From Geobacillus stearothermophilus ATCC 12980 (GTDB taxonomy: Bacteria > Bacillota > Bacilli > Bacillales > Anoxybacillaceae): DNA of 64,000 bases. Every line of letters starts with the position of its first letter. Positions within the stretch are counted from its first letter, which is position 1. The stretch covers positions 2,767,742 through 2,831,741 of the forward strand of contig NZ_CP128494.1 in the NCBI RefSeq assembly GCF_030369615.1, written 5' to 3'. The notes beneath the pieces are model-generated. The model worked only from the letters and a program-made list of their open reading frames with translations. It made no database searches and was not told where the DNA came from. Below are positions 38,708 to 44,745 of the stretch, piece after piece. The position numbers were made by a program, and so were the translations under genes.

Positions 38708-40529
38708 CGTACCAGTCATCCTTTTGCTCCCGTTCTAGCGGCAGCGTAAAATAAATCGTCGTCCCTTTATGTTCTTTGCTTTCCGCCCAAATCGTCCCGC
38801 CATGGGCGAGCACGACTTCTTTGGCAATGGCCAGTCCGAGGCCGGTGCCGCCCAATTTGCGCGACCGCGCCTTATCGACCCGGTAAAAACGCTCAAAAAT
38901 TTTCGCCAAATCGGCCTTCGGGATGCCGACCCCTTCGTCGCTGACGCTGACAATGATCTCGTCGGCCAGCTCGCGGACGCGGAACGTGATCGTCCCGCCT
39001 TGCGGAGAGTATTTCAACGCATTGGAAATGATGTTATCCAATACTTGTGTGATTTTGTCCTCATCCACTTCGATGAAAATCGCCTGGCGCGGAATTTTGC
39101 GAACGAACCGGATGTTATCGCTTTTTGTCAGTTCAAACCGGTCAATCACTTTATGAAAATAAGCCGAAAAATTGATCCATGTCTTTTTCAGCTTGTAATC
39201 TTTGCTGTCGAGCTTCGACAGATGAAGCAAGTCGTTGACGAGCCGAATCATGCGCTCCGTTTCATTTTGCACGACTTGAATGAACCTTGGAGCGATGTCT
39301 TTATCTTGCCAGGCGCCATCCGCCAATGCCTCTAAATAGCTTTTCATTGTCGTCAAGGGCGTGCGCAGCTCATGCGAGACATTGGCGACGAACTGCCGCC
39401 GCTCGCGGTCGATTTTTTCTTGCTCGGTGATGTCGTGCAAAACGACAATCAGCCCGTTGACAAACCCGCCCTCTTTTTGAATGACCGATAGTGACGCCCG
39501 CAAAATGTACAATTCCTCATCGGTGCTGAAATCCAAAATGAGTGAGTCGCGTTCCTCGAGCAGCGTTTCAAACGTATATTGGTCAGCGATGCCGAGCACG
39601 TCGACGATCGAACTCGACAGCACTGTTTCACGTGAAACATTCAAAATGTTTAACGCCGCATCATTAATGAGAATGACGCGGCCGCGGCGGTCGGTCGCGA
39701 TCACGCCATCGGTCATGTGCGTCAACACCGACTCAAGCTTGCGCCGTTCGCCTTCCGTTGTCGCCTGCGCTTCCTGCAGTTTTTTCGTCAAGTTGTTAAA
39801 GGTCATCGCCAGCTGGCCGATTTCATCATAGCCGTACACTTTGACTTTGCGGGAAAAATCGCCCCTTGTCATCGCCAGCGCTTGCCGGCGCATATCGGAA
39901 ATCGGCCGGGTGATGGTGCGCGACAAAAAAATACCGAGCACGGCGGTAATGGCGAGCGCGATCCCCGTCCCAGTCGCCAAAATCATGTTGATTTGCCGCA
40001 TTTGCGAAAAGACGTTTTCCATTGAGGCAATAACGTAAATGACCCCTTTGACTTCCCCGCTCGTCTTAATCGGAGTCGAGGAAATGTACATACGATGGCC
40101 TGTCCTTGAATCAAGCATCATCCGGTCGACAGTTTCGCCGGTGACGAGCGAACGCTTCACGTAAATCTCCGTCGTCCGCTTCCCGACGATGTTTTGCATA
40201 TACGGATTCGACGTCGCCAACACCTTCCCTTTGGCATCAATGACGCGCACTTCGGAAATATCTTGGGAAACGAAATCATGAAGAAGCGAACGGATGTCTT
40301 CTTCCAATGTCGGGCTTTTTTCATCGCGCTCCCGATTCATTGCCTGCTCGACGTTATAGGCGAGCAGCGTCACCCGTTCGTTCAGTGAGTTTTTGAAATT
40401 TTGCACAAGCTCCGTTTCCAACTTACGGACAAAATACACGCCGATGATTTGCATGGCGACAAGAATGAGCAGCACATAAATAATAACAAACTTAAAGCGG
40501 ATCGAACGAAATGGCCCTACTTTTTTCAT
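38700..40529 (-). CDS. walK: Essential cell-wall sensor histidine kinase
   Basis: The 609-residue WalK (YycG) has two membrane helices (about residues 10-30 and 183-205) framing an extracellular PAS-like domain, a HAMP (about 205-257), a cytoplasmic PAS (about 265-370), a HisKA domain with the phospho-His in NVSHELRTPLTTM (near residue 390), and a HATPase domain with N, G1 (DEGVGIP) and G2 (GTGLGLAIAKE) boxes. It senses peptidoglycan turnover and phosphorylates WalR. A parS site lies within the coding sequence. It starts 6 bases after walR. Confidence 0.97.
   Translation of the reverse strand: MKKVGPFRSIRFKFVIIYVLLILVAMQIIGVYFVRKLETELVQNFKNSLNERVTLLAYNVEQAMNRERDEKSPTLEEDIRSLLHDFVSQDISEVRVIDAKGKVLATSNPYMQNIVGKRTTEIYVKRSLVTGETVDRMMLDSRTGHRMYISSTPIKTSGEVKGVIYVIASMENVFSQMRQINMILATGTGIALAITAVLGIFLSRTITRPISDMRRQALAMTRGDFSRKVKVYGYDEIGQLAMTFNNLTKKLQEAQATTEGERRKLESVLTHMTDGVIATDRRGRVILINDAALNILNVSRETVLSSSIVDVLGIADQYTFETLLEERDSLILDFSTDEELYILRASLSVIQKEGGFVNGLIVVLHDITEQEKIDRERRQFVANVSHELRTPLTTMKSYLEALADGAWQDKDIAPRFIQVVQNETERMIRLVNDLLHLSKLDSKDYKLKKTWINFSAYFHKVIDRFELTKSDNIRFVRKIPRQAIFIEVDEDKITQVLDNIISNALKYSPQGGTITFRVRELADEIIVSVSDEGVGIPKADLAKIFERFYRVDKARSRKLGGTGLGLAIAKEVVLAHGGTIWAESKEHKGTTIYFTLPLEREQKDDWYDV
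39624..39639. promoter_or_regulatory. parS site within walK
   Basis: TGTTTCACGTGAAACA, identical to the consensus palindrome bound by Spo0J (ParB). It lies about 15 kb from the spo0J site and 24 kb from oriC. Confidence 0.93.
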
Positions 40530-40535
40530 GCCGAC

Positions 40536-41249
40536 TCATGACTCCTGTTCCGGGTTGCGCAAATAATAGCCGACGCCCCGTCTTGTGACGATCCACGACG
40601 GATGGGAAGGGTTGTCTTCGATTTTTTCACGCAGCCTTCTTACCGTCACATCGACCGTGCGCACATCGCCGTAATAGTCGTAGCCCCAAACCGTTTGCAG
40701 CAAGTGTTCGCGCGTCATCACTTGGCCGATATGTTTCGCCAAATAGTGGAGCAGTTCAAATTCGCGCTGGGTCAACGCGATCGTCTCCCCCCGTTTTTGC
40801 ACGACGTACGCATCTGGACGGATGACAAGCGGCCCGATGACGATTTCATTCGTTTCATTCTCCACTTCCTCTTGGTTGGCTGTTTGCGCATGGCGGCGCA
40901 AGTTCGCTTTGACTCGCGCCAGCAGCTCGCGCGTGCTGAACGGCTTTGTCACATAATCGTCCGCCCCCAGCTCCAAACCAAGCACTTTATCAATCTCGGA
41001 ATCTTTCGCCGTCAGCATGATGATCGGCATGTCGTATTTTTTCCGCACCTCGCGGCATACTTCCATGCCGTCTTTCAGCGGCAGCATAATATCCAATAAA
41101 ATCAAATCCGGCATCGTTTCTTCCACTTTTTGCAGCGCTTCCTCGCCGTCATAGGCGCAGATGACTTCGTACCCTTCTTTTTGTAAGTTAAATTGCAAAA
41201 TATCGGCAATCGGTTTTTCATCGTCAACAACTAAAATGCGTTTTTCCAT
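40536..41249 (-). CDS. walR: Essential cell-wall response regulator
   Basis: The 237-residue OmpR-type regulator (YycF) has a receiver with the acidic pair DD (residues 9-10), phospho-acceptor Asp53 ([11 protein letters not shown]) and Lys in TKPFSTREL. It is followed by a winged-helix DNA-binding domain ([20 protein letters not shown], then [15 protein letters not shown]). It controls autolysins and wall metabolism. ATG 41249 has AAGGAAGG upstream. First gene of the wal operon; the folded tandem repeat lies 110 bases upstream. Confidence 0.97.
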
Positions 41250-41358
41250 CTCGCTCACGCCCTTCCTTTTGCGATGGAATGCTATCATTATTAATTTACC
41301 ACGTTATAAAAACGAAATCATCCTTTGCCCGCTGCCATTTTGAGGAGCAAACCATATA

Positions 41359-41584
41359 TATAGATGCAATTTGAAGATTTACCATTTGCAGCCTTTATCG
41401 ACTGTCAGGCGACCGAACAACGCCGCTTCACAGACCCATATATGGGTCTGTGAAGCAGGTGGTTGTTCGGTCTTCCGTCACGCCTTGGCGTGACGGGGCA
41501 AGCCTATGGCTTGCCTTCGACAGTCGAAAATGGACAAACCGCTTTTCCGTCAAGGATATGTTAAACTTCTTCGTTGCATCTATA
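41359..41584. repeat. Folded repeat unit 1
   Basis: 226 bases bounded by TATAGATGCAA / TTGCATCTATA. Inside are nested hairpins: GACTGTC/GACAGTC, then ACCGAACAAC/GTTGTTCGGT enclosing a 14-bp arm (41424-41437 with 41442-41455), then CCGTCACGCC/GGCGTGACGG, then CAAGCC/GGCTTG. No coding frame. Confidence 0.85.
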
Positions 41585-41820
41585 TAGATGCAATTTAAAG
41601 CTTTAACATTTTTCGTTTTTACCGGTCATTTCATCCGAATGTCAAGTGACCGAACAACACCGCTTAAAGACCCATGAATGGGTCTTTAAGCGAGTCGTTG
41701 TTCGGTCTTCCGTCACGCCTTAGCGTGACGGAGGCAAGCCTATGGCTTGCCTTCGACAGTCAAAAATGGATGAGCCACTTTTCCGCCAAGGATATGTTAA
41801 ACGATTTCGTTGCATCTATA
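41583..41820. repeat. Folded repeat unit 2
   Basis: 238 bases, same boundaries and hairpin order as unit 1, and touching it end to end. The main arm differs in sequence (GCTTAAAGACCCA against GCTTCACAGACCCA) but its partner strand changes to match, so pairing is kept. Confidence 0.85.
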
Positions 41821-41888
41821 CAGTGAAAAGGGCATAGACGCACGCGCATGACACCGATCACGGACGGAACCGCTTTTCCTCCGCGAAT

Positions 41889-41922
41889 GAAAAAAGCATA
41901 GACGCATGTGCATCTATGCTTT
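41889..41922 (-). terminator. Terminator of purA
   Basis: Stem AAAGCATAGA/TCTATGCTTT (41893-41902 with 41913-41922) with an A run that gives a U tail on the minus strand, 20 bases after the purA stop. Confidence 0.85.
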
Positions 41923-41941
41923 GGTGTTCACCGCTAGCCGC

Positions 41942-43339
<1,398 letters not shown>

Positions 43340-43380
43340 TTAAACCCGAAAGGAGGCGCCTGCCGCCAACGTGAGCCGGT

Positions 43381-44745
43381 TTACGCCCCCGGCGGAATTT
43401 GCGCCTCATCGAAGCGGCGCTCTAGGTTGACAAACTTATTATACTCTTTAATAAAAGCGAGCTGCACCGTTCCGACTGGACCATTGCGCTGTTTGGCAAT
43501 AATGATTTCAATGATGTTTTTGTTCTCAGAATCTTTGTTGTAATAGTCATCGCGGTACAAAAAGGCGACAATGTCGGCGTCTTGCTCAATGCTTCCGGAT
43601 TCACGAATATCGGACATCATCGGCCGTTTGTCTTGGCGCTGCTCGACGCTGCGCGACAGCTGCGACAAGGCGATGACCGGCACTTCAAGCTCGCGGGCGA
43701 GCGCCTTCAGCGAGCGGGAAATTTCCGATACTTCCTGTTGGCGATTTTCTTTGCTACGTCCGCTCCCTTGAATGAGCTGCAAATAATCAATGACAATCAT
43801 GCCGAGCCCGCTTTCCTGCTTAAGCCGGCGGCATTTGGCGCGAATGTCGCTGACGCGGATGCTCGGCGTGTCGTCGATATAAATGCCGGCGTTCGATAAA
43901 CTCCCCATCGCCATCGTCAGCTTGCCCCAGTCTTCCGGCGTCAATTTGCCGGTGCGCAAGTTTTGCGCGTTAATGTTGCCTTCTGCACAAAGCATCCGCA
44001 TCACCAGCTGCTGGGCGCTCATCTCCAAACTGAAAATGGCGACATTTTCATTCGTTTTCGTCGCTACATTTTGGGCAATATTTAAGGCGAACGCTGTTTT
44101 CCCAACCGACGGCCGGGCGGCCACGATAATCAAATCGCTCCGCTGAAAACCGGACGTCATCCGGTCAAGCTCGGTGAACCCGGTCGGGATGCCGGTGATT
44201 TCCCCATCCCGGTTATGGAGCATCTCAATATTGTCATACGTTTGCACGAGAATGTCCTTAATATTTTTAAAGGCGCCCGAATGCTTCCGTTGGGAAACCT
44301 CCATAATTTTGCGCTCAGCTTCATCAAGCAAAACGTCGATCTCGTCTTCCCTTGTATATCCGTCTTGCGCGATCGATGTCGCTGTGCGGATGAGGCGGCG
44401 CAGCACCGATTTTTCCTCGACGATGCGGGCGTAATATTCGACGTTGGCCGCTGTTGGCACGGCGTCGGCGAGCTCGCTTAAGTAGGAGACGCCGCCGATT
44501 TCCTCAAGCTGCTCGGAAGCGGCGAGTTCCGCCGTCACCGTCACCAAATCGACCGGCTCCCCCCTGTCGGCGACGCGAAGCATGGCGTGAAAAATTTTTT
44601 GATGGGCTGCACGGTAAAAATCCTCTGGGATTAAAATTTCCGAAGCAGGCACTAACGCAGCGGGATCCAAAAATACGGCGCCAAGCACCGCTTGCTCAGC
44701 TTCAATGCTTTGTGGAGGAATTCGTTCTGAAAACAGCTCGCTCAT
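43381..44745 (-). CDS. dnaC: Replicative DNA helicase (DnaB type)
   Basis: The 454-residue hexameric 5'-3' helicase of the replisome (dnaC in Bacillus, DnaB elsewhere) has an N-terminal primase-interacting domain (to about residue 150), a linker, then a RecA-like domain with Walker A ARPSVGKTAF, Walker B MIVIDYLQL, and the DNA-binding SQLSRSVEQR region. It matches the G. stearothermophilus DnaB sequence as I remember it, including length. AAAGGTGG precedes ATG 44745. It follows gdpP and rplI in the conserved order. Confidence 0.97.
   Translation of the reverse strand: MSELFSERIPPQSIEAEQAVLGAVFLDPAALVPASEILIPEDFYRAAHQKIFHAMLRVADRGEPVDLVTVTAELAASEQLEEIGGVSYLSELADAVPTAANVEYYARIVEEKSVLRRLIRTATSIAQDGYTREDEIDVLLDEAERKIMEVSQRKHSGAFKNIKDILVQTYDNIEMLHNRDGEITGIPTGFTELDRMTSGFQRSDLIIVAARPSVGKTAFALNIAQNVATKTNENVAIFSLEMSAQQLVMRMLCAEGNINAQNLRTGKLTPEDWGKLTMAMGSLSNAGIYIDDTPSIRVSDIRAKCRRLKQESGLGMIVIDYLQLIQGSGRSKENRQQEVSEISRSLKALARELEVPVIALSQLSRSVEQRQDKRPMMSDIRESGSIEQDADIVAFLYRDDYYNKDSENKNIIEIIIAKQRNGPVGTVQLAFIKEYNKFVNLERRFDEAQIPPGA

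Follow-up and report, generated by a model that had tools for sequence, protein, structure and literature searches.

The window analysed here is a stretch of 64,000 nucleotides from Geobacillus stearothermophilus ATCC 12980. Between walR and purA it contains two tandem units, A and B, which lie directly upstream of walR, 70 bp from its longest frame, and overlap one another by a single TA (41583-41584). The two units, their ends and the order of their hairpins are as the first-pass annotation had described them, with exact coordinates of 41359-41584 and 41583-41820. The features of the pair are as follows.

41359..41584, forward strand: unit A, an IS630-type MITE of 226 bp, with ends TATAGATGCAA..TTGCATCTATA and flanks TA/TA.
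41583..41820, forward strand: unit B, an IS630-type MITE of 238 bp, with a CA duplication and its own right flank CAGTG.
41359..41385, forward strand: left terminal inverted repeat of unit A; the family consensus of this end resembles the ends of the resident IS630 group (19-22 of 27 positions).
41792..41820, reverse strand: right terminal inverted repeat of unit B, from sequence and end alignment.
41577..41590, unstranded: A/B junction CATCTATATAGATG of the nested copies, with the TA common to both units.
41400..41525, forward strand: folded core of unit A, with closing stem GACTGTC/GACAGTC, long arm and two hairpins, from the fold and a match to covariance model R1 (G000:C1:2809141-2809266, 133 bits).
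41637..41761, forward strand: folded core of unit B, with a partly mismatched closing stem (GAATGTC), from sequence, fold and alignment A2.

No open reading frame of 80 or more amino acids overlaps either unit, and a consensus scan of 41200-42000 found no sigma-70-like promoter. Consensus scanning returned three terminator-like sites in 801 bases (1.4 expected), one of them behind purA, and marked the top hairpin of unit B as terminator-like on both strands. Downstream of purA, positions 41893-41922 of the reverse strand form a terminator-like hairpin, with a partial second copy at about 41824-41849. A role of the units in wal control, or in the expression of walR or purA, is not supported.

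The joined walR-purA flanks align in one piece and without the element in ten of the 13 other genomes of the genus, and partially in G004 and G012 among the matches listed. At six of these loci (five of the ten and that of G004), which were aligned at the junction, divergence is too great for an empty site to be read cleanly. One relative, G011, has a single unit at walR-purA (L042) that is 98% like B and reads ..AAACCA[B]CAGTG.., that is, with a CA duplication. In the window, the position of unit A is a TA within the left end of unit B. As G011 holds B only and A sits in the left end of B, the tandem fits two successive insertions, in which B would have entered a CA first and A later the TA in the left end of B. 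A cis-regulatory element or noncoding RNA peculiar to this interval could explain a position so close in front of walR; it is extremely improbable, given that the same element occurs at many unrelated sites, that most relatives align across the interval without it while one has unit B alone, and that the promoter scan was negative. The earlier suggestion of a protein-binding cruciform next to the wal operon is not supported by the same comparison, the site being one of dozens.

At least 28 copies are present in the 2.86 Mb genome of this strain, with fragments of a copy counted as one and a single weak fragment omitted; this is a lower bound, as 40 of 46 candidates were scored. All 14 genomes of the genus, this one included, carry the element, G008 with a partial match only. 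Within the family it was found in 27 of 41 genomes and six of nine genera (again including its own), and named carriers include Geobacillus jurassicus, zalihae, proteiniphilus, thermocatenulatus and icigianus. A copy with 82% identity is present on plasmid pHTA426 of G. kaustophilus, where no gene or feature is listed at its position; this is the only annotated copy examined, and the gene table is incomplete. Elsewhere in the family, outside Geobacillus, both ends were found for 20 elements; these span 192-247 bp, the shortest being barely longer than ends plus core, and 17 of them have TA on both sides. The phage collection gave no match, and no description of the element was found in the titles and abstract openings of the open-access literature. 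The element is thus short (226-238 bp), lacks a transposase gene and occurs in many dispersed copies, as a MITE does.

Its boundaries were defined by searching the genus genomes with the joined flanks of the insertions of this genome. Clean empty alleles for five insertions give the ends TATAGATGCAA...TTGCATCTATA and a 2-bp duplication, which is TG at L017, TA at L015 and L016, CA at L005 and TA at L009, where the right end is altered; the empty site of L019 is not clean. By eye, the L005 insertion interrupts a permease-like reading frame that is continuous in relatives. The fetched loci contain 108 distinct copies, 75 of them with intact TATA ends. Identical dinucleotides flank 66 of these 75, compared with two of 75 for the next dinucleotide, which served as the control. 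The 66 duplications comprise 58 TA, four TG, three CA and one GA, and the target consensus is ATC-TA-GAT. Terminal inverted repeats and a target duplication, both read against empty sites, are again those of a MITE. The units had been suggested to be a folded non-autonomous transposon, and this is borne out by the dispersed copies, the empty sites, the target duplications and ends that match the resident IS630 group. At two further loci the copies have unusual surroundings. The copy at L007 lies inside an apparent membrane-protein frame, which it possibly disrupts, and adjoins a possible second partial MITE end. The copy at L151 (G000:C1:1147165-1147631) is split in two by foreign sequence of about 240 bp, which we take to resemble a small IS200/IS605-like relic.

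An IS630 model matches all 14 genus genomes, 13 of them above the curated cut-off. The resident IS630 group is about 1190-1200 bp long, with ends TATA[CAG]ATGCA..TTGAA.AGTTAAC, and nine of the ten elements shown have TA on both sides. The left end of the MITE family consensus shares 19-22 of 27 positions, without gaps, with each of five IS630 end variants, a similarity reached by at most two of 2000 shuffles in which TATA was kept fixed. The right end aligns to the IS630 ends with gaps only (p up to 0.009), and two further IS630 end variants gave no match to the MITE ends. Since both ends and target match the Geobacillus IS630 group, the element is classified as an IS630-type MITE. The target duplication of IS630 is generally given as strictly TA; the TG and CA duplications in seven of the 66 copies are unusual for IS630 and count against the assignment. 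An exact end-pattern search of this genome returned no autonomous element with the MITE ends, so that the partner is assigned by similarity. Apart from MITE copies already known, its matches were a lone end at 883456, which may be a relic, a site at 1148712 that looks like chance, the only end of a truncated copy (394655) and the split copy (1147165/1147621). Judging from the ends and the target, a resident IS630-family transposase most likely moves the MITE. An IS30-type transposase in its place would accord with 2-bp duplications that are non-TA in eight of the 66 copies, and the MITE ends presumably resemble the IS30 end TGTAGATTCAA; this is very improbable in view of the agreement with the IS630 ends, and IS30 was rejected as the mobiliser because an IS30 model matches none of the 14 genus genomes.

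The CCTGAAAA sequences beside ten copies were considered as part of the element and rejected, since they form the terminus of an IS110-family element. Ten of the 28 copies in this genome (L006, L008, L010, L011, L012, L013, L018, L021, L022 and L025) end exactly in ..ATCTAT and continue as CCTGAAAA[T/C]ACC, which is this IS110-family end, and the IS110 element seems to use MITE ends as a landing site. A gene-less version of about 105 bp exists, and part of an IS110-family transposase is found in L039, apparently with an IS630 element inserted into it. In the L187 region (G000:C1:2640472), an IS630 copy likewise has this IS110-type end near its own end.

Enclosed by the ends is a core of about 125 nt that forms a four-way junction, built from a closing stem and three arms whose order is fixed: first the long arm, which bears a nested palindromic top hairpin, then CCGTCACGCC/GGCGTGACGG and then GGCAAGCC/GGCTTGCC. 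The 'four hairpins' originally reported do follow the same order in both units; they are really one closing stem and three arms. As RNA, unit A with two extra bases folds at -119 kcal/mol (z -13.7) and unit B with four extra bases at -110 kcal/mol (z -12.9), values reached by none of 200 shuffles in either case; as DNA, unit B folds at -67 kcal/mol (z -12.8). The long arm does differ in sequence between the two units while pairing in both; in most of the family members that could be parsed, however, the arms at this position stay mismatched. The long-arm neck was parsed in 84 of the 108 copies, and the perfectly matching necks belong to the unit-B clade (nine), the unit-A clade (seven) and two copies of G010. 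Mismatched necks read CTTAAA/TGTGAAG in seven copies of one form, with more in variants, beside perfected necks that read CTTAAA/TTTAAG in nine.

The core is conserved as well as the ends. Between Geobacillus and the other genera identity is 81% for the core and 81% for the left end, compared with 70% for the filler (63% for shuffled filler). Covariation among the Geobacillus copies is weak to moderate: four of 62 pairs change on both sides, which was reached in 63 of 500 shuffles, and the other four measures were reached by 5-21 of 500. Across genera it is stronger. Alignment A3 (35 cores, with row L001 cut three bases out of register) contains 44 cells with two-sided changes (19.5 ± 2.8 in shuffles; 0/500) and has a covariation of 0.113, compared with at most 0.064 when slid; it has nine pairs with two-sided changes (6.4 expected from shuffles, reached by 20/500), and its further pair types were reached by 141/500. 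Alignment A6 comprises 23 cores, aligned by covariance model R1 and free of opposite-strand rows. Of its cells, 92.6% are paired; two-sided changes affect 33 of its 49 pairs and 143 of its cells (39.1 ± 5.2 cells in shuffles; 0/500), and covariation is 0.362, compared with at most 0.098 when slid. Alignment A4, once its four opposite-strand rows are removed, similarly has 33 such pairs and 125 such cells, where shuffles give 30.5 cells and at most 43. Because the model structure guided the fitting of A4 and A6, both lean towards it, and the copies are related, so that the shuffles overstate independence. A check free of alignment agrees: six single cores (types I-IV, described below, and an unassigned one) each give the same three-arm junction, with z of -10.5 to -14.3. 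The covariance search beyond this genome that the first-pass annotation had proposed thus recovered the core across genera and families with strong covariation. The selection on a folded nucleic acid claimed at the outset is supported by this covariation of the core across families, and not by the two units alone. A comparison with Rfam, likewise proposed, had a negative outcome, as no core reached a gathering score of Rfam 15 (searched in window positions 39000-44000 and in seven loci that represent types I-III and the unassigned core). Elsewhere in three of the core loci, Rfam models matched a ylbH leader, RAGATH-18 and a tRNA; the RAGATH-18 RNA (L270:793-856 in G028, 73.9 bits) shares its 3-kb locus with a type II MITE.

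The core also occurs behind other ends. In G020, a type I copy has as its neighbour another foldback element, built alike but with ends GTGTTGATTAACCA, and four end types carrying the core were distinguished in all.

Type I: IS630-like ends, TA duplication.
Type II: ends GTGTTGAT.., IS5377-like (IS4); duplications of 10-13 bp in six of 12 copies, 8 bp in one and 3-6 bp in five (control maximum 7).
Type III: ends GGCTsTTTTC..; 8-bp duplications perfect in eight of 12 loci, 7/8 in two and 4/8 in one, with no end pair in one.
Type IV: ends like GGCTTTGTTTAACA, two copies in G118; TTGTATTA on both sides at L306 and a near match at L309 (by eye).

In addition, a core in G150 (L272) lies between two genes without recognised ends. 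The type II end is also present on an IS4-family element of this genome that is 98.5% identical to annotated IS5377; type II ends match one end of that element, and the similarity to annotated IS5377 starts there. With R1, type II cores score 30-54 bits and type III cores 50-72 bits. Matches of type I cores on the opposite strand reach 57 bits through the palindromic long arm, the only part that they share, and the homology of type II cores therefore rests on architecture together with score. Searches with stricter filters, in which weak matches are lost, found the core in 13 of 299 genomes of the order (R1), four of them outside the family, and in six of 398 genomes of the class (R2), adding G118. 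The insertion sequences were searched with R2 in 16 loci, 14 of IS630 (ten of the matching group) and two of IS5377, and no clear core was found inside them. The only insertion-sequence locus with R2 matches is L160, where the matches are located in a neighbouring MITE; one of these is weak (18 bits, E 0.008) and extends over the final ~36 bases of the insertion sequence. The core is no leftover of the insertion sequences in these 16 loci. Type III ends without the core are found at L302, L303 and L304 on plasmids of Parageobacillus, Bacillus methanolicus and Cytobacillus, perhaps as other derivatives of the same type III transposon. None of the three plasmid records examined, of ten, names a transposase at these ends, and we take the 8-bp system, as a guess, to be ISL3. 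Because the same architecture recurs behind different ends and no clear core is found in the insertion sequences, MITEs belonging to at least three different transposition systems appear to share a single folded module. The further step, that Bacillales possess in this core a structured nucleic-acid module standing on its own, which several unrelated systems (IS630, IS4/IS5377 and at least one 8-bp-duplication system) have independently packaged into MITEs with its stems rewritten by compensatory change, is put forward tentatively, as a possibility somewhat short of an even chance.

The third-arm loop occurs in both orientations (CCTTGG 32, CCAAGG 15, CTAAGG 20, CCTTAG 12; 18/108 unparsed), as does the fourth-arm loop (CCTGTGG 32, CCACAGG 14, CCTATGG 12, CCATAGG 7; 10/108 unparsed). 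In codirectional gene settings, the element has the same direction as its neighbours in 35 cases and the opposite in 41 (p 0.57; 103 copies examined, with genes called by simple ORF picking). A count of abutting genes was left out of account, since the ORF picker reads open ends. The lack of a strand bias and the two loop orientations favour folded DNA over a sense RNA and speak against a role that needs one RNA strand. Activity at the RNA level, in which the junction would alter transcript stability or read-through or be bound or cut by a host ribonuclease, is unlikely for these reasons, and also since the hairpin loops are variable and the cores reach no curated Rfam score; it would account for the very stable RNA folds of units and single cores, the compensatory changes across genera and families and the terminator-like top hairpin of unit B, and transcripts of the Correia/NEMIS elements are proposed RNase III targets in the available part of one account (PMC2229807).

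Loop inversions and mismatched necks beside perfected ones fit events on folded DNA, for example template switching or hairpin repair, and such events would explain how the long arms of A and B differ yet pair. Arm-to-arm templated correction could yield some of the compensatory changes without selection. A core without function, its arms kept perfect by these processes and its spread a matter of chance recombination among MITEs, is in keeping with mismatched precursors that coexist with perfected arms, with loop inversions as a sign that such DNA events occur and with the weak to moderate covariation within Geobacillus. We regard it as somewhat unlikely, because the fixed arm order, the conserved hairpin tips and the recurrence within different ends are hard to obtain by chance and because the core is better conserved between genera than the filler. 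Action of the core at the DNA level has, in our estimate, close to an even chance.

Taken together, each unit is probably a MITE with IS630-type ends, likely moved by a resident IS630 transposase, whose core is a structured module common to other MITE types. In this proposal, the resident IS630-family transposase would bind the inverted ends of about 27 nt, and the element would be pasted in at a dinucleotide, in most cases a TA within a CTAG-like site, with duplication of 2 bp. Insertion of B into CA, followed by that of A into the TA of the left end of B, would yield the tandem pair at walR-purA. Within the ends, the core of about 125 nt folds as a four-way junction; with one strand exposed, it may work as a DNA fold that helps the copying, transposition or tolerance of the element. 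Bacterial MITEs are usually seen as passive, with two transposase-gripped ends and filler between them. Here the middle is conserved as well as the ends, and the junction is kept by compensatory change over several Bacillales families. If the core is functional, MITE interiors are selected parts and not debris, and the tight folding of many bacterial MITEs becomes testable by swapping or scrambling of cores. If the module is indeed shared, the core would be a common functional part, for instance a folded-DNA device that aids copying, excision or host tolerance. The covariance models can be used to annotate such elements.

Several known systems can be compared with the window element. The bcr1 element of the Bacillus cereus group has a folded structure, with ends and duplication that differ from those of the window element; by description, it is alike as a small dispersed repeat of Bacillales. 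In the case of IS5377 (IS4 family), the ends of type II MITEs match one end of an IS5377-like element of this genome; there is no relation to the IS630 ends that the window elements carry, and the core was not found in the two IS5377 loci searched. The ends of Correia/NEMIS elements of Neisseria begin with TATAG. These elements, as covered by the available part of the source, are alike in their terminal TA, inverted ends, target duplication and folded transcripts, and differ in their 24-bp ends, in reported IHF and promoter motifs and in that this part of the account describes no four-way-junction core (PMC2229807). The Nezha MITE of cyanobacteria, compared by description alone from a partial text, was likewise assigned to an insertion sequence (ISNpu3-like, proposed) by end similarity (PMC3049150). 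A survey of stem-loop sequences does not name Geobacillus in its main text (PMC2267715). The nearest described element is RUP of pneumococcus, a non-autonomous element of 107 bp with about 100 copies and IS630-Spn1 as its proposed mobiliser (PMC2229807; PMC3049150). The portions of these sources at hand, which allow a likeness by description alone, give RUP IS630-like ends, a TA target and a tight fold with hybridised ends, as in the window element; RUP differs in its length and in that a module common to other MITE types is not described in them (PMC2229807; PMC3049150). The window element is the same kind of element as RUP, Correia/NEMIS and Nezha, and what is new is a core common to several transposition systems.
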